The notes beneath the pieces are model-generated. The model had not been told where the DNA came from and did no database searches. It was given only the letters and a program-made list of their open reading frames with translations. 27,276 bases of DNA from a virus, in IMG/VR virus record IMGVR_UViG_3300037520_001437, positions 1-27,276 of that record, one strand, 5' to 3'. Positions 7,501-27,276 of the stretch are shown piece by piece. The position numbers and the translations under genes are program-made. Position 1 is the stretch's first letter. The number at the start of each line of letters is the position of its first letter.

Positions 7501-8591
7501 ATTATTTTGGTGAATACTCAAATGTAAATAAAAATGAATACCCAAGATTAAAATGGTTTTCAAGGGAATATTGGCAGAAGTATGAAAATAAAAATGATTT
7601 TACTGCTTATGTTAGATTACTTTCTGCATTTGATTTTAGTGTATTTGAACAAATAAGACAGACTTTACCGTTAAGAGTAAACGAAATACTTGGAGTTGTT
7701 GTTGAACCAAATGTACTCGAACGATCAAAACAATCGGTATTGAAAGATTTTTCTGGAATAAATCAAGATGTCATAGATACGAATGATTTATCTAAATTAC
7801 CAAAACCTGTTTCAAAATTTTCTTACAATAAAGGAACTGTATTAATTGGTTTCGATGAGGATCTTGGAAGTAAATTGTATGACATAGAAGGTGAATATAC
7901 AAGTGAAGTGGAAGTTGTTACACAATTTGATGAAATAGAAAACGATGTAGATTTGAATTTTAACGTAAACATCAAAGATGTTGAACCTAAAAAAACAACT
8001 ATTATTGCACAAAATAAAATACTAAACGGTTTATCTAATACAATAAAAACAACTCTTGATTTAGATAACAAATCAATAATTGGAAAAACCAATGATATTA
8101 GATTTACTTTGAAACCAAAGGCTAAATTTGTTTTAGAGTCCGTATTGAATAGTGACGAAGAAAATATGAATGTTTCTATATTTTGGAGTGCTCCTACAAT
8201 AGAATCTTCACCAACAACAATACCAAATAAATCAAATTATACATTAAAAGATGAAGTTACATCATTGTCATACAATTCAGAAGAAAAAATAACTGCAACA
8301 TATGAACAAGTATACAGTCATGTTGATGATGGTTACTATAAAAAGTTTGAACCTGTATTTTATAGTATGCCTGATTATGTTAATAATACACCAACAACTC
8401 ATTCGTTGATTGGAACAAATTATGTAAATCCAACATCTTTACCAACTGGAATACAAAATCATAGATATTTGGGATCAAAAGTAAGTTTGGTATATGGTGA
8501 TGAAATAAATGAAACATTGATTCCATCATTTATTCCACCAAATGATGTAATTACTGAAACATATGTTAAGGTAAGACCAAATATATTGTAA
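4572..8591 (+). CDS. Very large baseplate/tail structural protein with LamG-like middle domain
   Basis: A 1339-residue protein. ATG 4572 is preferred over an in-frame GTG at 4554 because GGAAG lies 11 bases upstream and the overlap with the previous gene is short. Residues about 560-590 hold a conserved block (NNLPYVYKTKGTGRAVKALL, then AAYGIP and EYGG) of a kind I recall from large marine T4-like phage virion proteins and that loosely resembles gpI/tail-protein-I segments. Residues about 640-830 look like a concanavalin/LamG sandwich ending in GSIYELRYWSNILS. A second conserved region follows (about 925-1060: LSPLSMHQSNTVTQFDRYSI, then FSPQHIINEDI, EYPRLKWFS.EYW and LPLRVNEILGVVVEPNVLER). 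The last 250 residues look more variable. Its position after gp6 and its size suggest the structural role that gp7 (1032 residues) plays in T4, but I see no direct homology. Confidence 0.75.
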   Translation: MSNFNYTNLEEILSTNSTIRGTRFLTTSARRRLIVPVLSEYDEQLNPNSVEVHAFLPNTAYVENGSFYNLPFEIQTITRTIQNANGQPEQTTERNIILDIHNHLHTKLKLFQGDYKLVYNFFVNYLGGPSEQEADGRVFISDISENRRELKLKLINNNSTNRASLESFVLSYLSSNVYLPPIVLNFGENMIVDVINVTSDGDNTYFFVKLYDELPQDIDLYYECWVGLQILKPLIESVKVLREDEVEVIPYIKGANFEANTDYWVSSETDYKSWTDLLSTNVQTSQEILNRYIGGTSASIELNVDFREFRNFIFYSSAEDRVQNFNYKVSLIEQFNGQLELLDTYTGSVNANKIKIKGLREKLISGFDNFEKFLYYETTSSNYYTTQSFASITPYPKYELDITASSYHILTKEGKFNLYPTISEEATNWYIDLLDKATDYDLKNYNSLEKSIPEYLRDSNDNEQFVSFVNMVGQHFDIMYLYTDHILRKSQRKENPKDGMSQDLIYHATKNLGWQLTHGTQAKDLWEYALGVSGSGEPIWTGRTTTNKYLAKSEEQRTKEVWRRVLNNLPYVYKTKGTGRAVKALLAAYGIPQTLLSIREYGGPDTADFGKPPTYEWEKHTYYLNLSGSWPSPTRQHHVEVPWDKVNNVKEVWQYPDTLTFRWKMEPDRLYDYEKDPVQTVLQKQSGSRLDWFVTVHHDGTDIEKGSLKFHMSDGTNYKSASINDTYLFDDIPLNIMIRRSSGSADNHSVNQKYELVLRTGKYGKIAIEQSASIVITGSIEPNYNRAWSSTGKLYIGSGSNPVTNQILSGSIYELRYWSNILSTSSFNNHTLSPRAYNGNYQTSSFYDLQAQWKFWDPWDVALTQSLNSTHPNRLKDRFYETPKTASFYGFNIDAFESITENYTMEVVSVANDTPFTEKIRIDSASLLSPLSMHQSNTVTQFDRYSIDSNKLMVAFSPQHIINEDIYEAIGYTILDDYFGEYSNVNKNEYPRLKWFSREYWQKYENKNDFTAYVRLLSAFDFSVFEQIRQTLPLRVNEILGVVVEPNVLERSKQSVLKDFSGINQDVIDTNDLSKLPKPVSKFSYNKGTVLIGFDEDLGSKLYDIEGEYTSEVEVVTQFDEIENDVDLNFNVNIKDVEPKKTTIIAQNKILNGLSNTIKTTLDLDNKSIIGKTNDIRFTLKPKAKFVLESVLNSDEENMNVSIFWSAPTIESSPTTIPNKSNYTLKDEVTSLSYNSEEKITATYEQVYSHVDDGYYKKFEPVFYSMPDYVNNTPTTHSLIGTNYVNPTSLPTGIQNHRYLGSKVSLVYGDEINETLIPSFIPPNDVITETYVKVRPNIL

Positions 8592-8602
8592 TTAATTAAG
8601 AA

Positions 8603-8629
8603 AATATAAATGTAACACATATTTATATT
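8603..8629. promoter_or_regulatory. AT-rich inverted repeat containing a TATAAATG late-promoter-like box
   Basis: Perfect 9-base arms AATATAAAT and ATTTATATT flank the loop GTAACACAT. The left arm contains TATAAATG (8605-8612), one base from the T4 late promoter consensus TATAAATA. It could be a late promoter, a weak terminator, or chance in AT-rich DNA. Confidence 0.35.
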
Positions 8630-8645
8630 AGAATTATTATTACAT

Positions 8646-8665
8646 CCCACATCGGGTTTTTATTT
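8646..8665 (+). terminator. Possible weak intrinsic terminator
   Basis: CCC (8646-8648) and GGG (8654-8656) can pair around the loop ACATC and are followed by TTTTTATTT. The stem is only 3 bp, but it is an isolated GC-rich island in very AT-rich DNA between two operons. Too short to be sure of. Confidence 0.3.
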
Positions 8666-8675
8666 GTCATAAAGT
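8660..8675 (+). promoter_or_regulatory. Conserved 16-mer TTATTTGTCATAAAGT upstream of the second structural operon
   Basis: It matches 14 of 16 bases of TTATTTTACATAAAGT at 19790-19805, just before the primase gene. Both copies follow a possible hairpin/terminator and precede a gene that starts a new transcription unit. A phage-specific promoter element is the simplest reading; the function is inferred. Confidence 0.35.
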
Positions 8676-8690
8676 AATACTATTAAAATA

Positions 8691-8697
8691 AAAGGAG
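8691..8697 (+). promoter_or_regulatory. Strong ribosome binding site AAAGGAG
   Basis: AAAGGAG ends 7 bases before the ATG at 8705. It is one of the best Shine-Dalgarno sequences in the window, suggesting high expression of the downstream structural protein. Confidence 0.75.
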
Positions 8698-8704
8698 TTT
8701 TAAA

Positions 8705-9388
8705 ATGGGTTATTTAAGCAATAGCGGAACAATAACAGTAGATGCAATTCTTACCAAAAAGGGAAGAGAATTGTTAGCAAAAGGTCAAGGTGCATTCAAC
8801 ATTACACAGTTTGCTCTTTCAGATGATGAGGTTGATTATGATTTATGGAATCCGCTTCACGGGCTTGGTACAAATTATTATGGTGTTGTTATTGAAAATA
8901 TGCCTATTACAGAGGCAGTTCCAGATGAAACACAATCAATGAAATATAAATTGATTACTCTTCCAGTTGGTACAAAATCTATACCGTACTTGAGAACATC
9001 AGATGATGCAACATCATATACGTTTGAAAGTTCTGCAAGAAAAGGTAAGGGATTTATAGATATTACTTTTTCAACTTACAAGTATGAAAATTTACCACAA
9101 GACGATAAATTATCAGAAAGTGGAATGACTTATTCCGTTACTATTTTAGATACAACATATGTGGATTTAGATCCTGCAAGTCTACCAACTGGTACGGTTA
9201 CAAGTCCATCTGGTAATTCTACAAAATATAGTAATATGATTCCAAACTCATCAACTTTTGATGTAACTTTTAAAGTTTTGGGTAAAACATTTGCTAATTC
9301 AGATGCACAAACTAAAACAACAAAAATTATTTTAGAAAATGAAACATATGGTTCAAGATTAGTTGTTCCTATTTCATATACATTCTAA
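8705..9388 (+). CDS. Conserved marine T4-like virion structural protein
   Basis: A 227-residue protein with a strong N-terminal signature: MGYLSNSGTITVDAILTKKG, then RELLAKGQGAF, NITQFALSDDEVDYDLWNP and a YYG..IENMP..EA.PDETQ.MKYKL block (about residues 55-85). I recognise this pattern from T4-like phages of marine bacteria, where it is annotated as a virion structural protein of unknown role. The rest is beta-rich (residues 85-227), ending in strands that suggest a sandwich fold. There are no Cys residues and no signal peptide. It is the first gene of its transcription unit and has a very good ribosome binding site, consistent with an abundant virion component. It does not look like T4 tail tube (gp19) or sheath (gp18). 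Recognition is from memory; the function remains open. Confidence 0.75.
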   Translation: MGYLSNSGTITVDAILTKKGRELLAKGQGAFNITQFALSDDEVDYDLWNPLHGLGTNYYGVVIENMPITEAVPDETQSMKYKLITLPVGTKSIPYLRTSDDATSYTFESSARKGKGFIDITFSTYKYENLPQDDKLSESGMTYSVTILDTTYVDLDPASLPTGTVTSPSGNSTKYSNMIPNSSTFDVTFKVLGKTFANSDAQTKTTKIILENETYGSRLVVPISYTF

Positions 9389-9422
9389 TATCGTTTCAAT
9401 TAGAAAATTATAGGATTATATT

Positions 9423-10616
9423 ATGGCAAATTTAATTTTTCATCCTGTTACTTATCCGAATAGTGATCCAAGATACGTTGTTGCAAATTCTTATGCAAAA
9501 TCATTATGGGGTAGTGTATCGAGTGAATTAAAAACATTTTTTACTAGTTCATTACAAACCGGCGGTTCTGTATCAAGTTCAAAATCATATTATTATGAAG
9601 TTTGGGGATCTGCATCATTAACTTGTAATGATGAACGTATGTTCTCTGTTGCATACGGACATGAGGCAGGATCTGGTTCTGCATATTTGGATTCGGTAGA
9701 TACAACAAGTGGTGATACACCATCAAAGTCAGTCTTTTCACAATTTAAATTAATGTGTTTGGATGGTGATGAGGAAGGATTTTTATTAAGTGGATCTATA
9801 TTTCCATTTGAACATATTTATGCAATTTCAATAAATAGGGATAAATTTGGGAACAGAATTGATCCTGGTAATTTTCAATTACATTTAGTTGGATTAAGTG
9901 GCAGTGGTGTACCGAACAATGTTCATACTGGAAGTAGAGTTAGAGTTTCTGGATCAAATCCAAAACTAATATCACTTATAGATGATTCAGGTGACGCAAA
10001 TCAAAGGGCAGTAGATTCTAATCCAGATTTTATATCAAGACCAAGATATATTGTTAGTGGAAGTATATCAAATGGTATTTCTGGATCTTATCCTGATAAT
10101 ACTTATGGCATATTATATCCCAGTTTGGGTGTGATGATTTTAGATGCAGATAAATTGAATGATGAATTGGGTTTTAATACTGTAACTGGAAGTAATGTTG
10201 CAGGTGATAATGCATTTAAGTTGTTCACATCTATAAGTGGTGCAGCCGCTATTAGAAATTCTGGTTTCATTGCACGTTCTATTGATGTAAAAAATGAATC
10301 TTCATATTATATTAATATAATGCCGTCACAATTTGGATATGCGTCAAATAATCCAACATATATTCTTCCGGAAGAATCACCCGATCCAGACTTTCCAAAT
10401 GACAGTAAATTGCGTGGAACAGGAATAATAAAAGAAGAAGAATGGCGTTCATTGGGTAATCCACCAAGACCACCACAGGCGAGTGTAGTTTATATTACAT
10501 CAATTGGTTTGTACAATGATACAAAGGATTTAATTGCAGTTGCAAAATTAAATAGGCCTGTAAAATTTGAGGGAACTAGAGACTTATTGAATATAATAGT
10601 AAAATTGGAGTATTAA
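9423..10616 (+). CDS. Tail/fibre structural protein, paralogue A of the GSGS family
   Basis: A 397-residue protein preceded by TAGGA 7 bases before the ATG. It is the first of five related proteins in the window. Shared landmarks are a YYYEVWGS strand, FSVAYGHEAGSGSAY (residues about 76-90), a PSKSVFSQFKLMCL helix/strand, IYAISINRDKFGNRIDPGNF (about 137-156), LISLIDDSGD, an IVSGSISNGI strand pair, YGILYPSLGVMILDADKL, DNAFKLFTSISGAA, and a C-terminal YITSIGLYNDTKDLIAVAKL. It is rich in Gly, Ser, Thr and Asn and predicted nearly all beta. A Pro-rich insert near residues 330-360 interrupts the region before the C-terminal motif. It is probably a baseplate-attached fibre or short tail spike component; no enzymatic motif is visible. 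The family is known to me only as hypothetical virion proteins in marine T4-like phages. Confidence 0.72.
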   Translation: MANLIFHPVTYPNSDPRYVVANSYAKSLWGSVSSELKTFFTSSLQTGGSVSSSKSYYYEVWGSASLTCNDERMFSVAYGHEAGSGSAYLDSVDTTSGDTPSKSVFSQFKLMCLDGDEEGFLLSGSIFPFEHIYAISINRDKFGNRIDPGNFQLHLVGLSGSGVPNNVHTGSRVRVSGSNPKLISLIDDSGDANQRAVDSNPDFISRPRYIVSGSISNGISGSYPDNTYGILYPSLGVMILDADKLNDELGFNTVTGSNVAGDNAFKLFTSISGAAAIRNSGFIARSIDVKNESSYYINIMPSQFGYASNNPTYILPEESPDPDFPNDSKLRGTGIIKEEEWRSLGNPPRPPQASVVYITSIGLYNDTKDLIAVAKLNRPVKFEGTRDLLNIIVKLEY

Positions 10617-17019: not shown

Positions 17020-18767
17020 TGTCTTTTCAATTTGGAAATAATATAAGTCTTGCTTGGAAAAAATTAAAAGCAGGAGAACATACGGTAAGGGAATTTCAGG
17101 CAAATAAATTGTACCAATTGAGTTCCGATCCTAATAATGTATTTAATTACAGACAAACTAGACTTGGATTATATCGAACATTTTTTCCTGAAAATTTTAA
17201 ATATTTTGGACAAGTTGCAAATTTATCATCATCATTATATGAAAGAATTTTTACAACACAAAGTTTGGATCCAAAAGTTCTTTGGTATTATATGGATCAT
17301 AGATACTATGCACCAATAACAACTCAAAAAATTCCTTCTACTGTAACCGATGATAATTTAATTGCAAATCACTATTTAAGTGGTTCTATTTTTGTTATAC
17401 CAAGAGATATGTTCGGTGAAGGTATAAAAAAGAAAAGTGTTGAAATATCAATATATGATGCATTAACATCATCATTGAATTATACGATAACTGATGATGG
17501 TTTTGGTAATTTAATAGATAATTCATTTGATAAATCTAAAATAATAAATCGTGACTATCAATTGATGTATATTGGATTCAATGATAAATACAGAGAATAT
17601 GGAACATCAAAAAATTACAAAACTGACTATATTGTTGATGAATCGCCATTTTACAATACAATAAAAATTGAAAATAAAAGATATATTGATTATCAAGCCG
17701 GAATAAAAACATCAGATACAAACGAAGACACTGGAACATCTGCATATTTTGGTGGAACATATCTTAATGTAAATGAATTTCAAAGATTTAATTTTAACAG
17801 AGGTAGGGATTTTTCTTTCAGTTTTTGGCTAAAGATTCCAGAAAATCAAACAGATATATCAACTACTTACAATAATATATTTGATAAAAAAACAGTAGAA
17901 GATTCAACGTTGAACACAGATATAACACAAGTTGGTGATGGTGATCAACCTGTTGAAATGATAAAAATTTCAAAAAAATATCCATTTGACATTTATCTGA
18001 ATAATCAAACATCTGATATAAATAAATCAATAACTTTTAAACAGGGATCAGAGTTATTATATTCAGAAGTAACATCATCTGCCTTGACTGCAAATGTTTG
18101 GCATCATGTTGTTTGTCAAAAGACCGGAAGTAATTATCAAATATGGGTAGATGGTGTATTGGAAAATACACAAAATAGAATAATAACAACTAATGTTGAT
18201 AATAACTATAAATTTTATATTGCAGGTAATGGAACAACATCAAGTAAATTTACTGGTAATCTTGATGAAATACGAATATATCGAAAGGCATTAACCTCAA
18301 CGGAAATATCAAATTTATATGATAATAGTTTTGAAAATGGTTATGCATATCAAACTGCAAGAATTGGTAATGTTTTTTATGGTCATGGGATAATATGTGT
18401 ATCGGATTCAAGACCAAAATATAAAAATACATTTTTGGGTAAAACTGGAAATTATGATTACAACGATGATGAGAATGGGTTTTTATTAAAATATAGAAGT
18501 ACGGTTACATATTGGGAACATGAAGTTATATGTAAACTGCGTAAAAATGAATTTAATTTTACACAAAATCCAAGTCTTTATACTAATCCGGAAATGGGTT
18601 CTATGCTAACAGATACTTATGCTACCAATCCAAACTTTAATCCATATGTCACAACGATTGGTTTGTATAGTGACAAAAGAGAATTGGTTGCAGTTGCTAA
18701 ATTTGCAAATCCTGTTGAAAAAAGAGATGATGTTGATATGAATTTTATAGTAAGGTTTGATTTGTAA
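17019..18767 (+). CDS. Tail fibre-like protein with inserted LamG domain (paralogue E)
   Basis: A 582-residue protein. Residues 1-220 carry motifs common in marine T4-like tail proteins: LSGSIFVIPRDMFGEGIKKK then SVEISIYD, and ITDDGFGNLID. Residues about 223-436 are a LamG/concanavalin-type sandwich, shown by AYFGGTYLNV, FSFSFWLKIPE, VWHHVVCQKTGSNYQIWVDG and the closing GNLDEIRIYRKALTSTEI. Residues 437-582 return to the fibre scaffold with IGNVFYGHGIICVSD, NEFNFTQNPSLYTNPEMGSM and the C-terminal PYVTTIGLYSDKRELVAVAK that also ends A to D. The arrangement looks like a scaffold interrupted by a sugar-binding-type domain, a plausible receptor-binding device. Start and stop both overlap neighbours (TAATG at each end), which ties it to paralogue D and to the downstream resolvase gene. 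No catalytic site seen. Confidence 0.74.
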   Translation: MSFQFGNNISLAWKKLKAGEHTVREFQANKLYQLSSDPNNVFNYRQTRLGLYRTFFPENFKYFGQVANLSSSLYERIFTTQSLDPKVLWYYMDHRYYAPITTQKIPSTVTDDNLIANHYLSGSIFVIPRDMFGEGIKKKSVEISIYDALTSSLNYTITDDGFGNLIDNSFDKSKIINRDYQLMYIGFNDKYREYGTSKNYKTDYIVDESPFYNTIKIENKRYIDYQAGIKTSDTNEDTGTSAYFGGTYLNVNEFQRFNFNRGRDFSFSFWLKIPENQTDISTTYNNIFDKKTVEDSTLNTDITQVGDGDQPVEMIKISKKYPFDIYLNNQTSDINKSITFKQGSELLYSEVTSSALTANVWHHVVCQKTGSNYQIWVDGVLENTQNRIITTNVDNNYKFYIAGNGTTSSKFTGNLDEIRIYRKALTSTEISNLYDNSFENGYAYQTARIGNVFYGHGIICVSDSRPKYKNTFLGKTGNYDYNDDENGFLLKYRSTVTYWEHEVICKLRKNEFNFTQNPSLYTNPEMGSMLTDTYATNPNFNPYVTTIGLYSDKRELVAVAKFANPVEKRDDVDMNFIVRFDL

Positions 18768-19180
18768 TGCGTAGAAATCAAGTTGCAATAAAACATGGGT
18801 TTCGTAGTGGATTGGAAGATACTGTAAATGATTTGTTGAAAGAAAGTAAAAAATCATTTAGTTATGAAACTGAAAAAATATCCTACATACAACCAGAAAC
18901 TAAACACAACTATACACCAGATTTTGTTCTAACAAAACAATCTGGTCAAAAGATGTATGTTGAAACAAAGGGCAGATGGGTAAAGACAGACAGATTAAAA
19001 TTTGACCTTATATTTGAACAATATCCCCAAATAGATATTCGTTTCGTATTCCAAAATCCAAATGCAAAGTTATACAAGGGAAGTAAAACAACTTATGCCC
19101 AATACTGTGACAAGAAGGGTTGGTTATGGGCGAAAAAAGAAATACCTAGAGAATGGTTAGATGAATGTTTGGATTTGTAA
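18767..19180 (+). CDS. Holliday junction resolvase, T7 endonuclease I family
   Basis: A 137-residue structure-selective endonuclease of the T7 gp3 family (T7 protein 149 residues). It acts on branched DNA as a domain-swapped dimer. The metal-binding catalytic set is complete: Glu17 in SGLEDTVNDLL, Asp52 in YTPDFVL, and Glu66 and Lys68 in YVETKGRWVKTDRLKF, corresponding to E20, D55, E65 and K67 of T7 endonuclease I. The downstream DIRFVFQN and KGSKTTYAQYCDKKGWLWA segments and the final IPREWL also fit the family. Its ATG overlaps the stop of the tail gene (TAATG), so it is expressed with late structural genes. That suits removal of branches before DNA packaging, the job that the unrelated endonuclease VII (gp49) does in T4. 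Function assignment is strong; timing is inferred. Confidence 0.93.
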   Translation: MRRNQVAIKHGFRSGLEDTVNDLLKESKKSFSYETEKISYIQPETKHNYTPDFVLTKQSGQKMYVETKGRWVKTDRLKFDLIFEQYPQIDIRFVFQNPNAKLYKGSKTTYAQYCDKKGWLWAKKEIPREWLDECLDL

Positions 19181-19246: not shown

Positions 19247-19741
19247 ATGTTGAAACTTAAAGACATATTAACAGAAGCCGTAGAAGGAGAAATAAAATGG
19301 GAAACCGATCCAATGGTAGACGGCTTCAACGGCATATTTCTTGGTCCAGATGGCAAAAATTTTAGAATAAAGATTGGGAATCTCCCATTAGACTATATTA
19401 CACCTGCAGACAAACAACTACTTGATACTTTATGGAAAGATAAAACATCTGAATCCAAATTTGATGATTATGGTTATGCATGTCTATGTTATGATACAAA
19501 AACAAAGGGGCGTGGAAAATTGGATTCATCTACAATATCAAAAGTTTCAAATATGTTTGTAGATATTCTTGCTGCTAAACTTAAAGCAGATAGAGTAGAA
19601 TATGTATATTTTCAATCATCTAAACGTCCGGTATCAGGGCAACTCCATTCAATGATAGCTCCTAAAATTGCATCAAAAATGGGATTTCAAGTTAAACAGA
19701 TTAAAAGTGGTTGGATGGTAGGAAAAGATATATTTAAGTGA
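19247..19741 (+). CDS. Predicted head-targeted internal protein with T4-like capsid-targeting N-terminus
   Basis: A 164-residue basic-to-neutral protein; ATG 19247 follows GTGAGAG by about 7 bases. The N-terminus MLKLKDILTEA aligns without gaps with the T4 capsid-targeting sequence MKTYQEFIAEA. In T4 this peptide sends internal proteins and Alt into the prohead, and the gp21 protease cuts after Glu10. Here Leu8-Thr9-Glu10 fits the T4 cleavage rule (Leu or Ile, any residue, Glu). The rest of the protein (GFNGIFLGPDGKNFRIKIGN, a central DYGYACLCYD strand, a helix at about 103-120, RPVSGQLHSMIAPKIASKMG at the end) looks like a compact alpha/beta fold; I do not recognise it. It has its own 66-base leader. 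If the prediction holds, the mature protein would be packaged in the head and possibly injected with DNA. The targeting claim is inference from a short motif. Confidence 0.6.
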   Translation: MLKLKDILTEAVEGEIKWETDPMVDGFNGIFLGPDGKNFRIKIGNLPLDYITPADKQLLDTLWKDKTSESKFDDYGYACLCYDTKTKGRGKLDSSTISKVSNMFVDILAAKLKADRVEYVYFQSSKRPVSGQLHSMIAPKIASKMGFQVKQIKSGWMVGKDIFK

Positions 19742-19752
19742 TAAAATGCTTG

Positions 19753-19789
19753 TAATTGTCACAAATTTTTACTATATTTGTGACAATTA
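19753..19789 (+). terminator. 14-bp perfect inverted repeat before the primase gene (terminator or operator)
   Basis: Arms TAATTGTCACAAAT (19753-19766) and ATTTGTGACAATTA (19776-19789) pair perfectly around the 9-base loop TTTTACTAT. It starts 12 bases after the stop codon of the preceding gene and is followed by T-rich DNA. As RNA it would form a stable hairpin, fitting an intrinsic terminator. Its symmetric TTGTCACAA/TTTGTGACAA core would also suit a dimeric repressor. It lies in the primase leader and might control that operon. Confidence 0.6.
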
Positions 19790-19805
19790 TTATTTTACAT
19801 AAAGT
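19790..19805 (+). promoter_or_regulatory. Second copy of the 16-mer, TTATTTTACATAAAGT, just before primase
   Basis: It differs from the copy at 8660-8675 only at positions 7 and 8. It directly follows the inverted repeat and ends 7 bases before the primase ATG. If CATAAA acts as a -10 box, the mRNA would be almost leaderless, which would fit the lack of a good Shine-Dalgarno sequence. Promoter role inferred. Confidence 0.35.
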
Positions 19806-19812
19806 GCGTTTT

Positions 19813-20766
19813 ATGATTAACTACGATTTGTTATCACTTGTAGAAAAAGTTCTCGGTAAAGGTAGACGAACATCTGGCAACAATTATTCGTTCTTCTCAC
19901 CATTTATCAGTCATTACAAACCAAAACTTGAAATAGACCTATCAGTAAACAATAATTCAGAAAACCCATGGCATTGTTGGGTTAGTAATGCTAAAGGTAG
20001 AAGTATAGTTTCTCTTTTCAAGAAATTGAAAGTTGGTAGACAATTTCAAGAAGACCTCAATAAAATTCTCAAAACAAAAAACCTATACATTCAGAATAAA
20101 AAAGAAACAAAAGAAGAACTGACTTTACCAAAAGAATTTATCAATTTATATCAGTTTCCAAAGATAAAAGATATTCAGATAAAGATGCAAATGAAACAAT
20201 CATTAAATTATTTGAAATCGAGGGGAATTGGTAGAACTGATATTTTGAGATATGGGATTGGGTATTGTCCGAGTGGTAATTATTCTGGTAGAATCATCGT
20301 TCCATCTTATGACGATAATTTCAATCTAAACTTTTTTGTTTCTCGTTCTATCTTTGAAGAAGACATATTAAAATATAAAAATCCAAAATGGAGCAAGGAT
20401 GTTATTGGATTTGAAAGTTTCATAAATTGGGAAGAACCTATCACACTCGTTGAGGGTGTTTTCGATGCAATTACTGCACGATACAATGCCATTCCACTAT
20501 TTGGCAAAATAATTCAACCAAGACTTATGGAAAAGATATTGTTGCGTAAACCACCAAAAGTGATTGTTGCACTTGATAGTGATGCGATAAATGATGCAAT
20601 AAAAATTTCATCCAAACTACTATGTGAAGGTATCGAAGTATCAATGGTTAAGATGGAACAGAAAGATATAAATGAAATGGGTTTCAAAGATTTTGTTGGT
20701 GTTAAACAAGAAACAAAACCCACAGACAGTTATGACATAATTAAACAGAGGATATTATATGCGTAA
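19813..20766 (+). CDS. DnaG-type DNA primase with TOPRIM domain (T4 gp61-like role)
   Basis: A 317-residue protein (ATG start; the frame extends upstream to a GTG at 19804 and a TTG at 19756, but the latter lies inside the inverted repeat). Primases of this family make RNA primers for lagging-strand synthesis with the replicative helicase. The catalytic core starts near residue 130 (YLKSRGIGRTDILRYGIGYC), then SGRIIVPSYDDNFNLNFFVS. The TOPRIM motifs follow: Glu214 in TLVEGVFDAI, Asp255 and Asp257 in VIVALDSDA, and KDINE at 284-288. The N-terminal region (about 26-66: FFSPFISHYKPKLEIDL, NPWHCWVSNAKGRSI) has the outline of a DnaG zinc-binding domain, but only one Cys remains. The last 8 bases overlap the fused nuclease gene. 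No strong ribosome binding site. Primase call is good; retained primer synthesis is not certain. Confidence 0.82.
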   Translation: MINYDLLSLVEKVLGKGRRTSGNNYSFFSPFISHYKPKLEIDLSVNNNSENPWHCWVSNAKGRSIVSLFKKLKVGRQFQEDLNKILKTKNLYIQNKKETKEELTLPKEFINLYQFPKIKDIQIKMQMKQSLNYLKSRGIGRTDILRYGIGYCPSGNYSGRIIVPSYDDNFNLNFFVSRSIFEEDILKYKNPKWSKDVIGFESFINWEEPITLVEGVFDAITARYNAIPLFGKIIQPRLMEKILLRKPPKVIVALDSDAINDAIKISSKLLCEGIEVSMVKMEQKDINEMGFKDFVGVKQETKPTDSYDIIKQRILYA

Positions 20767-23700
20767 AGAAACATTGTGGGTTGGATCACTTGCTAGAGTA
20801 GATACAATTATTCATATTGCAGATGTTCATATTCGTAATCTTAAAAGACACGAGGAATATCGTAGTGTATTCCAAAAAGTATATGATGTTTGTAGAAAAA
20901 AAGTTGAAGAAAACAAAAATACAATAATCTATCTTGCAGGTGATATTGTTCATGCAAAAACAGATATGACACCTGAATTGGTTGCAATGGTAACTGAATT
21001 TCTTGATACACTTTCAAGAATTGCTCCAACGATTTTGATTGCAGGTAATCACGACTGTAACTTGAACAACATGAGTAGGATGGATGCACTTTCACCGATA
21101 GTTTCTCTTATTAACGATGACTTCAATAATCTTTTTTATCTGAAAGAAACTGGTGTGTATGAACTTGAAAATGTTGATTTCGTTGTAAACTCTGTTTATG
21201 AGAATCCTGAAAATTTTATTTTGGCAAAAGATGTTAATAGTGGTAATAAAACAAAAATAGTTTTATACCATGGTCCTGTTGATAGAGCGGCAACCGATGC
21301 TGGTGTTCTTATGAAACATAATCAAGTAAAGGTTGAAATGTTTGATGGATTTGATTATGGTTTATTCGGTGATATACACAAGTTTCAATATCTTGATGTG
21401 GGTGGAAAGTTTGCTTATGCAGGTTCACTCATTCAACAAAATTACGGTGAAGGATTAACACATGGAATAATTGAATGGGACATTAAAAACAAGAAATCAA
21501 AGTTTATTGAAATTGAAAATGATTGGTCATATCATACTATTGATGTTGAAAATGGTAAGATGAAAAAATTACCAACAAAGTTTACCAAATACAATTCTAT
21601 TCGTTTGAGAATAACAAACACACCACATTCGGAAGTCAATCAGATAATGACAGACTTGAAATCAATGACGAATGTTATAGACATCAGAACACAACATCTT
21701 GTTGGATCTAGCAATGGTAATATACAAACAAAAGTAAATCCAATCGGTAAAATTCGTGATGTTGAATATCAAAACAAATTGATTACGGACTATGTAAGTG
21801 ATAAGTTTTCAGTATCAGATGAAATACTTGAAAAGATAAGAAATATAAATCGTAATGTAAACACAAAAATATCAGAGAGTGATGTTGTTCGTAATCTTGT
21901 ATGGACGCCAGTATCATTTGAATTTGATAATATGTTTTCTTATGGCAAAGGAAACCGTATTGATTTTTCAAATATGAATGGTGTGTATGGATTGTTTGCA
22001 CCTAATGCTAGTGGTAAATCCTCATTGCTAGATGCTATCATGTTCTGTCTATTCGATAAGTGTTCCAGAACATTTAAGGCTGCACAAGTTCTTAACAATA
22101 AGAAAGAAAACTTTCAATGTAAATTACATTTTATGATTGGTGATAAAAATTATTACATTAAGAGAGTTGCAACAAAAGAAAAGAAAGGAAATGTAAAAGT
22201 CAATGTAGATTTTTGGTATGAAGAAAATGGTGATTTGGTTTCTTTGAACGGTGAGGATAGAGATACAACAAATTATGCAATCAGAAAATACATTGGAACA
22301 TACGATGATTTTGTTCTAACTGCAATGTCATTGCAGGGTAATAATACAAACTTTGTTGACAAGGCACAAAAGGATAGAAAAGATTTACTTGCACAATTTT
22401 TTGACTTAAATTTATTTGAGGAACTGAATACTATTGCAACTGATGAAGTAAAGGGATTGCAAGCATTGGTAAAAGAATTTAAGAAACAAGATTACTCAAC
22501 CAAACTTGCCGATGCGAATGGTATTCATCAATCAAATACCGTTTTGTTAGAAGAAACGGTAGACCAGAAAGGGTATATCGAAAAGAAAATAGAAAAATTA
22601 ACAGAAGAAATATCCGAATTAAACAAGAAACTTATCCCTACTGATGAAAACTTTTCTTCAAAATCTGTCCAATCATTATTAGATAAGAGATATTTATTAG
22701 ATAGAAAGATGACTGATTTGGCAAAGGAATTAACTGTATTAGAAGGTGAATTATCCGATGCAAACTCATCATATGACAAATATAATGGTTTATCGAAAGA
22801 GTTTGACAAAGAAACTCTTATGAAAAATAAAGAAATAGTTGATGATGTTAGAAACAAACTTACACAATTTGAAGCTGATTTGAGAAGTGTAAAGCTGAAA
22901 GTTCAACATTGTCAGGATAAAATTGATAACTTGAAAGACCACGAATATGATCCTAATTGTCAATTTTGTGTTAATAATGTGTTTGTAAAAGATGCAGAAA
23001 AGGCAAAGTCACTAATATGGGGTTATGAACAAGACCGTGATGAATTGATATTTGAGATAAAACATCTCGAAGGAGAATTTTCAAAAAGTTCATCTGTATA
23101 TTCCGAGTTAGAAAAATTACACAGTCTTGAAAATAGTGCTTTCAAATATGAAAAACAAATTTACTCAATAGAAAAGAGTATATTTTCTGTAAAAGAAGAA
23201 CTATCAAAGATTGGTGAAGAACTATCATCGGTTGATAGTCAAATTGAAAAATTAAAAGAGAATGAAGATACTATAAATCAAAATGCAAAAATTCAATTAG
23301 AAATTGCTGAATTGGAAATGGAAAAACATAGAAGTTTGAAGATTGAATTAAAAGAGATTGATGAAAACATTTTAGAATATAGTGGAAATGTAAAGGTTAG
23401 TGAAAAAATAATAAACGAATGTGAAGTTTCAATTCAAAAGCTGAAAGACCTTGAAAATGAATATGAGGCATACGATTATTATTTGAAGGTGGTAAATAGA
23501 AACGGTGTTCCGTATGAATTGATTAGTAATGCTTTGCCAAACATTCAAGAAGAAACGAATAATATATTGGCAAACATTGTTGATTTTCAAGTTCTTTTCG
23601 ATACGGATGGCAAGAGTATAAACACTTATATTGTTTATGACAATGACCGTTTTTGGAATTTGGAATTGTCAAGTGGAATGGAAAAATTTATTTCATCACT

Positions 23701-23941
23701 TGCAATCAGAACAGCATTGATACAAGTTTCGTCTTTACCAAGACCAAACTTTATTGCGATAGACGAGGGATTGGGTGTCATGGATCCAACAATAATGGCC
23801 AACTTCTCTCTGTTCATGGAGTATTTGAAAACACAATTTGAGTTTGTCATACTTATATCACACATAGATAGTGTTCGTGATATGGTTGATAATCATATTG
23901 AAATTAAAAAAGAAAATGGTTTTTCTAAAATAGAGACATAG
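20759..23941 (+). CDS. Fused Mre11-Rad50 recombination nuclease/ATPase (T4 gp47+gp46, SbcD+SbcC)
   Basis: A 1060-residue chain holding both halves of the end-processing complex needed for recombination-dependent replication. Mre11 half (about 14-335): DVH (22-24), GD (61-62), GNHD (96-99), YHGPVD (170-175), GDIH (204-207) and YAGSL (220-224), i.e. the full metallophosphoesterase set. Rad50 half (about 385-1060): Walker A APNASGKSS (414-422), Q-loop Gln526, coiled-coil arms (about 555-725 and 745-905), zinc hook CQFC (734-737), ABC signature LSSGMEK (970-976), Walker B FIAIDE (998-1003), D-loop GVMD, and H-loop His1035. In T4 and bacteria these are two genes. No stop, frameshift or ribosome binding site for a separate second protein is visible around the junction (335-385). 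AGAGGA lies 6 bases before the ATG, which overlaps the primase end, so the two are translationally coupled. Confidence 0.93.
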   Translation: MRKETLWVGSLARVDTIIHIADVHIRNLKRHEEYRSVFQKVYDVCRKKVEENKNTIIYLAGDIVHAKTDMTPELVAMVTEFLDTLSRIAPTILIAGNHDCNLNNMSRMDALSPIVSLINDDFNNLFYLKETGVYELENVDFVVNSVYENPENFILAKDVNSGNKTKIVLYHGPVDRAATDAGVLMKHNQVKVEMFDGFDYGLFGDIHKFQYLDVGGKFAYAGSLIQQNYGEGLTHGIIEWDIKNKKSKFIEIENDWSYHTIDVENGKMKKLPTKFTKYNSIRLRITNTPHSEVNQIMTDLKSMTNVIDIRTQHLVGSSNGNIQTKVNPIGKIRDVEYQNKLITDYVSDKFSVSDEILEKIRNINRNVNTKISESDVVRNLVWTPVSFEFDNMFSYGKGNRIDFSNMNGVYGLFAPNASGKSSLLDAIMFCLFDKCSRTFKAAQVLNNKKENFQCKLHFMIGDKNYYIKRVATKEKKGNVKVNVDFWYEENGDLVSLNGEDRDTTNYAIRKYIGTYDDFVLTAMSLQGNNTNFVDKAQKDRKDLLAQFFDLNLFEELNTIATDEVKGLQALVKEFKKQDYSTKLADANGIHQSNTVLLEETVDQKGYIEKKIEKLTEEISELNKKLIPTDENFSSKSVQSLLDKRYLLDRKMTDLAKELTVLEGELSDANSSYDKYNGLSKEFDKETLMKNKEIVDDVRNKLTQFEADLRSVKLKVQHCQDKIDNLKDHEYDPNCQFCVNNVFVKDAEKAKSLIWGYEQDRDELIFEIKHLEGEFSKSSSVYSELEKLHSLENSAFKYEKQIYSIEKSIFSVKEELSKIGEELSSVDSQIEKLKENEDTINQNAKIQLEIAELEMEKHRSLKIELKEIDENILEYSGNVKVSEKIINECEVSIQKLKDLENEYEAYDYYLKVVNRNGVPYELISNALPNIQEETNNILANIVDFQVLFDTDGKSINTYIVYDNDRFWNLELSSGMEKFISSLAIRTALIQVSSLPRPNFIAIDEGLGVMDPTIMANFSLFMEYLKTQFEFVILISHIDSVRDMVDNHIEIKKENGFSKIET

Positions 23942-23942
23942 A

Positions 23943-26900
23943 ATGATAGAAAAGAAAAGACTTAAAAGAAATTATGTGGACGTTCAGACCAATATAGATG
24001 ATTTTAATAATCTATCAGAAGGGATATTGAACATAACAAAATTGCCAGAAGTGTTTACATCTGGTAAAAATGTCTTTAAGTTTTCTCCAAATTTTGATGT
24101 AGTGGATATTGGTTATCCGATATACATAGAGATATTAGATTCTAGTGGGGAGCCAGTATTTCACGAAGTTTTGGAATTTCAAGAAAAAGATGATTCTATA
24201 AATGTTGTGGTTTATGTATATGAAACAACAAAACCTGGTGATTGTATATTAACTATTTTATCAACTATATTTGTTGATAGAGATGGAAACCCTTTAAATG
24301 CAGATGAGGTTTTTGAACAAAATTACAAGTATACCCACAACTTAAAGATAAATACAAAAAAGAAAAATGATTCTGAAATAATATATTTACACTATCCACA
24401 AATTTCTATTCAAGAAAAAAGATATTCTATTCTTGAAGAAAAATTTGATCCCGAAAAACAAAAAACAATAAGTGGTTCTGCTGATTATTTTCTTTCCGAT
24501 GGACAAGTTCCCATACTAAGAGCAAGGGAAAATTTATTTAAAAAAGATTATGAAAATGCAACTATATGGTTTCCATATCTTTCAAATGAGATAATACCAA
24601 ATCTAACTACATCTAGTTTTTCATATACATCAAGTATTCAAAAAGTATTAACACCCTATCAAATATTTTTGGATTCTAGAGTATATGCAACAAGTTCTAT
24701 GGAAGTTAGTAATGAGATAATATCATCTATAAATCAACCATATTATATTACATATAATAAAATACCACTCGAAAGAAACTCAACAAAAAATATAAAATCA
24801 TTTGCAGTTGTAGACATTTACAATTTAGATCCAGAAGCAGGTCATGTTTCAAGGGTAAAAGTATTTGGTAAAAGTGCAACAAAACCAAATCAGTCCTACG
24901 AACTTTTTTATGATGGTGCAATTACTGAAAAAAATTATTTGGTAACTGCTTCAAATTATTTCGTAGAATTACCAATTGGTGTATTTGGTGATGAAATAAA
25001 AGTTTTTGATTTTGAAACAAAAGTAACAGGATCTATAAATCCATATTCATATTGGAAGACAACTTCAATAAAAGGTGCACCAACTGCAACTATCGCATCA
25101 AGTAGTACGTATTTATTAAATCCAATATCTGTAAAACCTAATGCAATTTTATCCGATAAACAAGAAATAATACTTGAACAGAAATCAGAATATTCTGCAA
25201 ATTTCAATGACAATACAGTATACAGTCTTATATTTGATTATTCGGTGGAAGAAAATAGTTATGATAACAGAGAACCTTTACTGAATGTGTATGCAAGCGG
25301 AAGTTCATTTGTAAATAATACTGAATATGGTGCATTTGTTGCCGAAGTTCCACTAACCAATAGAGACGATAGATTTGGATTGGATTATTCTGTAAAACTT
25401 CCAGTTAATAGTGCTGGAACCGGTGTAATAAAATTTTTATTGAGAGATGGTACATCAATTTCCAATATTAGAATTGTTAGTGAAACAGATTTTGGATTTA
25501 CACCAAATATTTCAAGACTTTATGTTCCTATAAAAATAGATCATAGAAATGAATTTTTAGATTTCAAAATAGAATATTTTAATGATTCATTACAACAGGC
25601 AAATATAACATCTGAAATATACAGCGTATTTTTCAATGGCGGTAATGTTTATATTTACGGTGATGATTCTTACATAACAGGTTCACAAGAAGTTGGTAAT
25701 GATTCTGTAATAAAATCCGAAGGATATAAAGGACTCGATGAAGCAAAGAAAAATGTTTTAGAAAATAACCCACTCTATTACTATTACAGAACAACCACAA
25801 GAGGTATAAATTCTCTCTATGTAAAAAATAATGACAATACTTTGTGGGCTTGGGGATATAATGTATCTGGTCAATTAGGACTTGGTGATAAGGTAAATAG
25901 ATCATCACCCATTCAAGTTGGAACTTTAAAAAATTGGGCATCCGCATCTGCAGGTGATGATTATACGATTGCTGTTAAAACTGACGGGACAATTTGGGGT
26001 TGGGGATCAAATACATATAGACGAGCAGGAATTACTGGATCTGGAGCTGCGTCTACAAGTTCTCCGGTTCAAATTGGAACAGAAACAAATTGGAATAAAG
26101 TTTTTGCAGGCACAAATCATAGTTTAGGTATGAAACGTGATGGATCACTTTGGGCATGGGGAAGAAATAACAATGGACAACTTGGTTTAAATGATAGTGT
26201 AACAAGGTCATCTCCAGTTCAAGTTGGAACGGAAACAAATTGGAAGGATGCCGCGGTTGCTCAAGCTACAACAGTTGCAATAAAAAATGACGGAACACTT
26301 TGGTCTTGGGGCTCTAATGATTCTACTTCTGGACGAAGAACAGTGGAAACGCCAACCGTAGTTAATCGAAGTTTGCCTGTACGAATAGGAACTCTCTCAA
26401 ATTGGACATCAGTTGTTGGTAATCAATACCATTATATTGCATTAAATACATTAGGAGAATTATGGACTTGGGGAGAAGGTGGAAATGGCGTATTAGGACA
26501 AGTTACCGATACCTTAGCAAAATCATCTCCTGTTCAAATTGGAACACTAAAAACTTGGGTTTCTGCATCAACAGGTAAATACCATAGTCTTGCTGTGAAA
26601 AATGATGGAACTCTATGGGGTTGGGGTTACAATTTCAGAGGTGCACTCGGACAAGATGATTTGATACCAAGATCGTCTCCTGTACAAATCGGAACAGGAT
26701 CAAATTGGTTGTATACTCATGGTGGACAAGATTTTACGTTTGGAATAGACCGAACTGGAAGTTTTTATGCTTGGGGTGATAATGAATTTGGACAACTAGG
26801 ACTTAATAGTACAACACACTATTCTTCATCCATACTGATTTCAACTTCATCGGTAAGACCAGTTACAAAATCATTATTTGGTTGGTCATTTAACGTTGGT

Positions 26901-27276
26901 GATCCATTTAATTCTGGAATTAAACAAAATAGTGTTCAGTTAATAAATGAAGAAGGTGCATATTTAGATTTTGCAACATATCCACCATTGCTTGACTTAA
27001 CATTTAAAGGTAGTAGTTCGAGATTATATGTTGAGAGTGAAAGTGGTTCAATTCTTTGGGATGGTAAAAAAATAGTTGTAACTGGTGTAGAGATTTCATC
27101 ATCGGTTATTGTTGGATCTTTATTGACTGGATCATTACCAGATGGTGTTGTATCTGGTTCACCACAAACACTTGAACATTTATATGGAACAAATATAGTT
27201 TCTAGTTCAGAACAAAGATTTGTTTTAGGATTGGCAGAAACAGACTCACCGCGATTTTCGGGTCTAACTATTGATG
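23943..27276 (+). CDS. Large tail fibre-like protein with RCC1 beta-propeller (3' end outside window)
   Basis: Open for 1111 residues from ATG 23943 to the right edge; it starts 1 base after the preceding stop. Residues 1-620 are beta-rich and resemble N-terminal parts of marine T4-like tail fibres (for example LRARENLFKKDYENATIWFP, FTPNISRLYVPIKIDHRNEF, FFNGGNVYIYGDDSYITGS). Residues about 620-969 contain seven RCC1 repeats of about 49 residues with LW.WG.N..GQLGLGD, SSPVQIGT, W....AG..H..A.K.DGT. A lone final strand (INSLYVKNNDNT) precedes repeat 1 and would close blade seven, so the propeller looks complete. After it, GWSFNVG onward returns to fibre-like sequence, with SPRFSGLTID at the edge, a motif I associate with fibre shaft repeats. 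Probably a host-recognition fibre or adhesin. RCC1 domain certain; fibre role inferred. Confidence 0.85.
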   Translation, partial: MIEKKRLKRNYVDVQTNIDDFNNLSEGILNITKLPEVFTSGKNVFKFSPNFDVVDIGYPIYIEILDSSGEPVFHEVLEFQEKDDSINVVVYVYETTKPGDCILTILSTIFVDRDGNPLNADEVFEQNYKYTHNLKINTKKKNDSEIIYLHYPQISIQEKRYSILEEKFDPEKQKTISGSADYFLSDGQVPILRARENLFKKDYENATIWFPYLSNEIIPNLTTSSFSYTSSIQKVLTPYQIFLDSRVYATSSMEVSNEIISSINQPYYITYNKIPLERNSTKNIKSFAVVDIYNLDPEAGHVSRVKVFGKSATKPNQSYELFYDGAITEKNYLVTASNYFVELPIGVFGDEIKVFDFETKVTGSINPYSYWKTTSIKGAPTATIASSSTYLLNPISVKPNAILSDKQEIILEQKSEYSANFNDNTVYSLIFDYSVEENSYDNREPLLNVYASGSSFVNNTEYGAFVAEVPLTNRDDRFGLDYSVKLPVNSAGTGVIKFLLRDGTSISNIRIVSETDFGFTPNISRLYVPIKIDHRNEFLDFKIEYFNDSLQQANITSEIYSVFFNGGNVYIYGDDSYITGSQEVGNDSVIKSEGYKGLDEAKKNVLENNPLYYYYRTTTRGINSLYVKNNDNTLWAWGYNVSGQLGLGDKVNRSSPIQVGTLKNWASASAGDDYTIAVKTDGTIWGWGSNTYRRAGITGSGAASTSSPVQIGTETNWNKVFAGTNHSLGMKRDGSLWAWGRNNNGQLGLNDSVTRSSPVQVGTETNWKDAAVAQATTVAIKNDGTLWSWGSNDSTSGRRTVETPTVVNRSLPVRIGTLSNWTSVVGNQYHYIALNTLGELWTWGEGGNGVLGQVTDTLAKSSPVQIGTLKTWVSASTGKYHSLAVKNDGTLWGWGYNFRGALGQDDLIPRSSPVQIGTGSNWLYTHGGQDFTFGIDRTGSFYAWGDNEFGQLGLNSTTHYSSSILISTSSVRPVTKSLFGWSFNVGDPFNSGIKQNSVQLINEEGAYLDFATYPPLLDLTFKGSSSRLYVESESGSILWDGKKIVVTGVEISSSVIVGSLLTGSLPDGVVSGSPQTLEHLYGTNIVSSSEQRFVLGLAETDSPRFSGLTID
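25842..26850 (+). repeat. Seven tandem RCC1 repeats within the fibre-like gene
   Basis: Each unit of about 147 bases encodes one propeller blade. Blade openings read LWAWGYN, IWGWGSN, LWAWGRN, LWSWGSN, LWTWGEG, LWGWGYN and FYAWGDN. Repeats 1, 3, 5 and 6 are close in protein sequence; repeats 2 and 4 have irregular loops (TYRRAGITGSGAAST and DSTSGRRTVETPTVV). Repeat 7 lacks its final strand, which is supplied from before repeat 1. Confidence 0.88.

Follow-up and report, generated by a model that had tools for sequence, protein, structure and literature searches.

Nuclease and ATPase motifs in one frame

The DNA studied here, which we call the window, is the whole 27,276-base IMG/VR virus record IMGVR_UViG_3300037520_001437. 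It carries, at 20759..23941 on the plus strand, a single open reading frame of 1060 residues with an ATG start, exactly as a first-pass annotation of this DNA had placed it. The encoded protein has a complete Mre11/SbcD-type nuclease in its N-terminal part and a complete Rad50/SbcC-type ATPase in its C-terminal part. The product is very probably a single-chain Mre11-Rad50 (SbcD-SbcC) of the same kind as Mimivirus protein R555, and the main and probably only Mre11-Rad50 machine of a large aquatic tailed phage.

The Pfam family Metallophos matches residues 16–208 (E = 4e-12; 47.3 bits against a cut-off of 21.5) and AAA_23 matches residues 390–625 (E = 9e-14; 53 bits against a cut-off of 27). PHROG families for SbcD (E = 2e-28) and SbcC (E = 2e-47) are also matched. 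All nuclease and ATP-binding cassette (ABC) ATPase motifs, the coiled coil and the zinc hook of SbcCD/Mre11-Rad50 are present; what sets the protein apart is that the chains are not separate but lie in one frame. The nuclease motifs are D22/H24, G61-D62, GNHD (96–99), H171 and GDIH (204–207). Those of the ATPase are a Walker A reaching to K420-S421, Q526, CxxC (734–737), Walker B D1002-E1003, D-loop D1009 and H1035. Archaeal and eukaryotic Mre11 proteins normally have a His in motif II (GDxxH), and H65 was therefore left out as a diagnostic residue.

Conservation was assessed in 111 rows, namely 110 full-length loci and the window; one locus (L052) duplicates the window, and five contigs each contribute two rows. 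Of the 25 scored catalytic and ATPase positions, 23 are invariant. C734 is replaced by Tyr in one row, and D205, the Asp of motif V, is kept in all 111. The first-pass claim that the motifs of both enzymes sit in one frame is thus borne out by Pfam, PHROG and conservation alike.

The fused frame in relatives

Relatives were found in 55 of 55 pattern matches when IMG/VR was scanned with the protein, and in 595 of 600 with a profile, among the matches listed. The collection analysed comprises 142 loci (L001–L142), many of them short and some duplicated, the window included. Leaving out loci cut by a contig end and partial matches, 112 have the whole gene, and in 110 of these it is one open frame of 1043–1073 residues, closed at both ends, with identity falling to 28%. 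Without duplicates and the window, the 110 loci correspond to 104 other records, including the isolate Microcystis phage Mel-JY01 and four contigs from metagenome-assembled genomes (MAGs); clustering at 85% identity leaves 61 rows. In one of the two exceptions (L003) the main frame, of 1201 residues, is fused and a short extra match lies upstream. In the other (L002, LR756508.1, a 484-kb uncultured phage) the nuclease part, not the junction, is split by an insert of about 1 kb. Judged by these sequence scans, the fusion is common among aquatic phage contigs, among the matches listed.

Two half-specific scans, which do not presuppose a fusion, were each confined to the best 80 by score, and their lists overlap strongly in contigs. 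With the ATPase half alone as query 76 of 79 relatives in the best-scoring list were fused, and with the nuclease half alone 77 of 80; in the other three of each list the contig breaks off on the side that would be decisive. Among phage records, four of the 851 that match cover at least 80% of the query at one place: Mel-JY01 and three uncultured phage records. The full-length fused gene of Mel-JY01 encodes WWT39521.1, which is 48.8% identical to the window protein. Of 72,556 plasmid records 35 matched, each over less than 80% of the query. A literature search returned no paper on the isolate Mel-JY01.

The window being a single IMG/VR record and possibly a fragment, the frame could be an artefact of assembly or sequencing that hides a stop codon or frameshift between two genes, a doubt already raised in the first-pass annotation. 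Neither exception among the 112 whole-gene loci is broken at the junction, the remaining 110 are single-framed down to 28% identity, both half-specific scans return fused genes wherever the contig continues, and an isolate carries a full-length fusion of its own. Assembly error was rejected as refuted by the independent contigs and the isolate; the chance of such an artefact is minute.

The insert of L002, at 8580–9592, lies directly after the catalytic GDIH motif. Its open reading frame of 305 residues has cysteine clusters and a TnsA-like endonuclease domain, and it resembles a homing-endonuclease intron; in Rfam no intron model matched it, a single chance-level row being returned. The whole fusion gene is also found on L131, L132, L134 and L136, contigs placed in archaeal or bacterial MAGs, which may have come from phages and been binned with cellular DNA.

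Domain order and the nature of the join

An AlphaFold2 monomer model was computed from a 60-row alignment (mean predicted local distance difference test, pLDDT, 83.5; predicted template modelling score, pTM, 0.51). Together with the conservation and structure matches it gives the following division, all on the plus strand.

20759..23941, +, fused Mre11/SbcD-Rad50/SbcC protein, 1060 residues, ATG start, single open reading frame
20798..21700, +, nuclease and capping region, residues 14–314 (Pfam Metallophos, structural match, conservation; catalytic D22, H24, D62, N97, H98, H171, D205, H207)
21704..21757, +, flexible loop, residues 316–333 (pLDDT about 50, without secondary structure)
21761..21862, +, two-helix hairpin, residues 335–368 (model helices 335–349 and 354–368)
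21863..21898, +, true linker, residues 369–380, about 12 (without secondary structure in the model)
21899..22408, +, Rad50-type ATPase N lobe, residues 381–550 (AAA_23, structure match; Walker A to K420/S421, Q-loop Q526)
22409..22957, +, ascending coiled-coil arm, residues 551–733 (model helices; conserved less than the heads)
22958..22969, +, zinc hook CxxC, residues 734–737 (C734 in 110 of 111 rows, C737 in 111 of 111)
22979..23494, +, descending coiled-coil arm, residues 741–912 (model helices)
23495..23938, +, ATPase C lobe, residues 913–1060 (conservation, model, structure match; signature 971–975, Walker B D1002-E1003, D-loop D1009, H-loop H1035)

The nuclease region matches SbcD of Staphylococcus aureus (7dog, Z = 24.8 over residues 14–313) and of Escherichia coli (4lty, Z = 23.6 over residues 13–313). 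For the ATPase, the structure ranking is headed by E. coli SbcC head complexes, with 7yzo_D at Z = 30.7 for 349 residues over 382–1060.

The linker of about 50 residues proposed in the first pass resolves differently in the model. A loop (316–333) is followed by two helices (335–349 and 354–368) and then by only about 12 residues (369–380) leading to the first ATPase strand (381–390). The stretch 372–381 measures 9–11 residues in all 111 aligned rows, and D334, Q338, N339 and N364 in and beside the hairpin are conserved. The hairpin 335–368 is probably the Rad50-binding, helix-loop-helix (HLH) domain of Mre11, to judge from its place and shape in the model: the capping domain was traced by structure match up to residue 313, the HLH by place and two-helix shape alone. 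In P. furiosus Mre11, a 14-residue loop between nuclease and HLH is described (PMC8824468), to which the disordered stretch 316–333 is comparable. For the fusions known earlier, the gap from the Mre11 C terminus to the Rad50 N terminus was given as about 28 Å and the bridge as 9–12 residues, and the Mre11-Rad50 order was judged compatible with the two-protein complex (PMC3175470). The 9–11 residues measured here are in accord with that bridge.

The fusion had also been supposed to limit how the ATPase heads can open. In the model the join lies between the hairpin and the ATPase N terminus, and the loop of the nuclease is kept. Since the Rad50-binding domain already sits on Rad50 when the proteins are separate, a join at this place lends no support to such a limit; nor does the disordered loop 316–333, which still separates the nuclease and cap from the hairpin. 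The idea is thus unsupported, though not disproved. Taken as a whole, the first-pass interpretation is partly supported.

One gene might still yield two chains, by an internal start or by proteolysis, with an ordinary two-protein complex as the working form. The linker would be exposed, and the homologues in T4 and Herelleviridae are two genes. We examined every position within residues 300–400 where 15 or more of the 111 rows have an in-frame start codon. Just one of these is a conserved ATG, M392 (108 rows); it falls just past the first ATPase strand and lacks a Shine-Dalgarno-like motif in every row. At the seven other positions the motif occurs in at most 2 rows. This test is weak, as a slightly laxer pattern finds the motif at just 53 of 110 real starts; by it, internal initiation is unsupported. 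The constant linker length also speaks against two chains, and we consider this alternative very unlikely. Provided one chain is made, the 1:1 stoichiometry proposed in the first pass follows.

Relation to known fusions and to two-gene systems

Contrary to the novelty that the first-pass annotation had implied, Mre11/Rad50 fusions have been in the literature since 2011, a Bacillus phage example included. Yoshida, Claverie and Ogata (2011; PMC3175470) describe Mimivirus R555 and twelve further Mre11/Rad50 fusions, with a Bacillus phage, plasmids and eukaryotes among their carriers; the authors did not observe one P-loop segment in the fusion of Bacillus phage 0305phi8-36 (PMC3175470). With the R555-like proteins, R555 being compared by its published description, the window protein shares an N-terminal nuclease and a C-terminal ATPase in one chain, a short linker and the motif-V Asp. 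It differs in belonging to a tailed-phage contig, not a giant virus, in having 1060 residues against 1351, and in a coiled coil that is probably shorter. From sequence and description, the phage fusion is best filed as the R555-like kind known since 2011, the fusion itself not being new. Aquatic metagenomic relatives of R555 were reported on scaffolds that also bear homologues of phage primases and endonucleases (PMC3175470), and the primase and endonuclease I neighbours in the window fit those described. The longer contigs and the isolate support an inference that Yoshida et al. had to draw from short scaffolds alone: phages are the carriers of many of the abundant R555-like sequences from aquatic samples. 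Judged by titles and abstract openings, with subscription journals mostly uncovered, no report of the fusion was found beyond PMC3175470. A jumbo-phage survey of 2021 calls SbcC and SbcD practically universally conserved, and its passages on them make no mention of fusion (PMC7824862).

Other fused proteins were found among phage records, in a search of the kind that the first-pass annotation had proposed: those of Mel-JY01, Thermus phage phiLo, Vibrio phage 1.031.O and Tenacibaculum phage pT24. WWT39521.1 of Mel-JY01 aligns over its full length and has a primase-like gene just upstream, as in the window; a small extra gene lies between the two, and a SegE-type GIY-YIG endonuclease gene (L001, 10274–10786) stands in place of the window's endonuclease I, which was looked for in the Mel-JY01 record and not found. 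The annotation of WWT39521.1, 'AAA domain containing protein', names the ATPase half alone. Labels such as this, 'coil containing protein' or 'metallo-phosphoesterase' illustrate how annotation can miss half of such proteins. In phiLo (phiLo_161, 866 residues) and Vibrio phage 1.031.O (NVP1031O_031, 1054 residues) one frame contains both Pfam domains above cut-off, while in pT24 (1310 residues) nuclease and ATPase were recognised in one frame by the fusion profile. All three are very diverged from the window protein, and the ATPase half of pT24 has no Pfam match at 0.01.

T4 gp47/gp46 and the SbcD/SbcC of Herelleviridae have both domains in the same order and on the same strand, but as two separate genes and with GHxH in motif V; in three Herelleviridae a primase gene follows a few genes further on. 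Among 29 proteins compared with the fusion profile, T4 gp47 was not significant (E = 0.16). An E. coli SbcC head (7yzo_D) is the structure that fits the ATPase head best, and E. coli SbcD (4lty) also fits the nuclease well. SbcCD consists of two proteins, SbcC alone having 1048 residues and a much longer coiled coil.

A fold search among viral proteins was led by giant-virus proteins of 969–1389 residues, from Tupanvirus, Harvfovirus, Yasminevirus, Terrestrivirus and Catovirus, which aligned over 1106–1376 columns, close to full length. They include repair proteins of Tupanvirus (1379 residues, E = 3e-76), Harvfovirus (1343 residues) and Yasminevirus (1389 residues). The pT24 protein ranked 10th. 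At rank 14, a 1009-residue 'recombination exonuclease' of Listeria phage LMTA-57 (A0A068CB47) matches the full-length model and is possibly another fused protein; the phage group of LMTA-57 normally has the two genes apart.

Motif V and the origin of the fusion

In R555, Asp replaces the motif-V His equivalent to P. furiosus H206 (PMC3175470). Asp was present at this position in all 13 fused proteins chosen for comparison, as GDIH in 12 and as GDVH in phiLo. Seven of eight split SbcD proteins have GHxH, and the one with Asp is from Proteus phage PM135.

Trees of each half, suggested in the first-pass annotation, were built from 21 rows by a quick method, with E. coli as the one cellular pair and no giant-virus protein. 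They agree on one fused group: 11 fused rows stand together in both trees, with a Shimodaira–Hasegawa-like approximate likelihood ratio test (SH-aLRT) value of 98, and the fused proteins of phiLo and Vibrio phage 1.031.O fall outside it in both. In the ATPase tree these two stand among split rows, and in the nuclease tree they join the protein of PM135, which is split. Each tree requires two changes, of which well-supported branches force one, and several branches are very long.

A single fusion event behind every fused protein of phages and giant viruses is possible but doubtful. The 11-row group in both half trees and the motif-V Asp common to all 13 fused rows would fit a single origin. The outlying position of phiLo and Vibrio 1.031.O does not, though their branches are long and only one change is forced, and several fusions are favoured by Yoshida et al. 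(PMC3175470). A wider proposal has the phage clade as main reservoir and source of R555-like fusions, those of giant viruses included, with join and motif-V Asp marking a functionally distinct Mre11-Rad50 branch whose nuclease and ATPase could not exchange or dissociate and whose end processing would be unlike that of SbcCD. We consider it unlikely.

Genomic setting and probable role

The window encodes baseplate genes, a LamG-domain protein, endonuclease I, a DnaG-like primase, the fusion and an RCC1-repeat protein. Two neighbours upstream of the fusion gene are:

18767..19180, +, endonuclease I of the Phage_endo_I family (Pfam Phage_endo_I, E = 6e-43)
19756..20766, +, DnaG-like primase, directly upstream of the fusion (PHROG_47, E = 3e-28; TIGR01391, E = 1e-14, under its cut-off)

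The ATG of the fusion sits inside the end of the primase frame, the overlap being 8 bases. Homologues occur in 135 of the 142 loci for the primase and in 102 for endonuclease I. Wherever all three genes appear in the gene orders, the order is endonuclease, primase, fusion. The endonucleases on the metagenomic R555-like scaffolds are taken by us to be of the endonuclease I family.

Eleven long relative records were searched for further genes: Mel-JY01, LR756508 and nine IMG/VR contigs of 137–274 kb, records that are not established as complete genomes. AAA_23 above cut-off is confined to the fused frame in nine of them. In LR756508 the match above cut-off lies in the ATPase part of the fused gene, which the insert interrupts, with one further match elsewhere below cut-off, and in G008 the sole match is the fused frame, just under cut-off. 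Thus, none of the 11 long records has a second Rad50-type gene above the Pfam cut-off. A RecA-family gene is present above cut-off in 10 of the 11 and endonuclease I in seven. The Phage_endo_I matches in G003, G005 and G009 each cross one in-frame TAA.

A defence or counter-defence ATPase-nuclease, similar to LmuB/LmuA of Lamassu, would be a different enzyme from one of replication and recombination. The PADLOC model for LmuB does match the ATPase half (E = 8.5e-34). LmuB itself is a Rad50/SMC-type ATPase, so that this match is expected, and we took it for the shared ATPase fold and rejected a defence system. An Mre11-type nuclease half, the primase homologue at most loci and the absence of another Rad50-type gene above the Pfam cut-off from the long records all point away from defence, which we regard as highly improbable.

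As a single-chain Mre11-Rad50, two copies of the protein would pair via their nuclease domains and, with ATP, via their ATPase heads. Pairing would yield the usual M2R2 clamp (two nucleases, two ATPases) on DNA ends, and the zinc hook would close its short coiled coil. Through binding and hydrolysis of ATP, the nuclease would be gated at DNA ends and at blocked or branched ends. For the phage, the enzyme may provide recombinogenic single-stranded ends for recombination-dependent replication driven by RecA/UvsX, and perhaps also serve host DNA degradation, like T4 gp46/gp47. As the joined pieces already touch in the two-protein complex, the join of hairpin, about 12 residues and ATPase would secure assembly and 1:1 supply rather than create a new mechanism. 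With its fixed stoichiometry, its 1060 residues and its short coiled coil, a single-chain Mre11-Rad50 of this sort is a convenient subject for structural studies.

Observations that weigh against the assignment

Several observations count against a complete, fused and sole Mre11-Rad50. The protein remains below the curated cut-offs of the NCBIfam models sbcc (60.2 bits against 478.5) and sbcd (31.6 bits against 77.65). Its ABC signature reads SSGME (971–975); the canonical motif is LSGGE. The metal ligand H24 is Gln in six of the 111 rows, L036 among them. A pTM of 0.51 means that the domains of the model are credible and their mutual placement unsure, and a profile of the hairpin stretch, searched against the PDB, gave 12 chance-level rows without a convincing match.

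As regards fusion, the best-80 lists of the half-specific scans favour close, fused relatives, so that the lack of a split form applies to the closest IMG/VR relatives. Two more distant, nuclease-only relatives match the nuclease region of the profile, on a Bacteroidales MAG contig (L138, 5995–6846, closed frame of 284 residues, E = 3.5e-58) and on a Flavobacteriaceae MAG contig (L139, 1409–2314, 302 residues, E = 1.5e-46); no ATPase match was found on either contig (12.8 and 5.6 kb). L140–L142 match that region weakly. The first five matches of the viral fold search have low template modelling (TM) scores, 0.37–0.61 on the query, values that are expected for long coiled coils; the giant-virus proteins may be fusions, as read from length and alignment span alone.

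As regards a sole machine, AAA_23 can miss diverged Rad50 halves, pT24 giving no match at E 0.01, and extra small Metallophos genes (frames of 220–278 residues) are present in six of the 11 long records.

Other genes of the window

Between endonuclease I and the primase lies an open reading frame of 164 residues (19247–19741), without a match in Pfam and PHROG searches and with a homologue in only five of the 142 loci. Downstream of the fusion, at 23943–27275, an RCC1-repeat gene runs off the contig (Pfam RCC1, E = 5e-54; RCC1-like domain, E = 7e-64); 96 of the 142 loci have a homologue of it.

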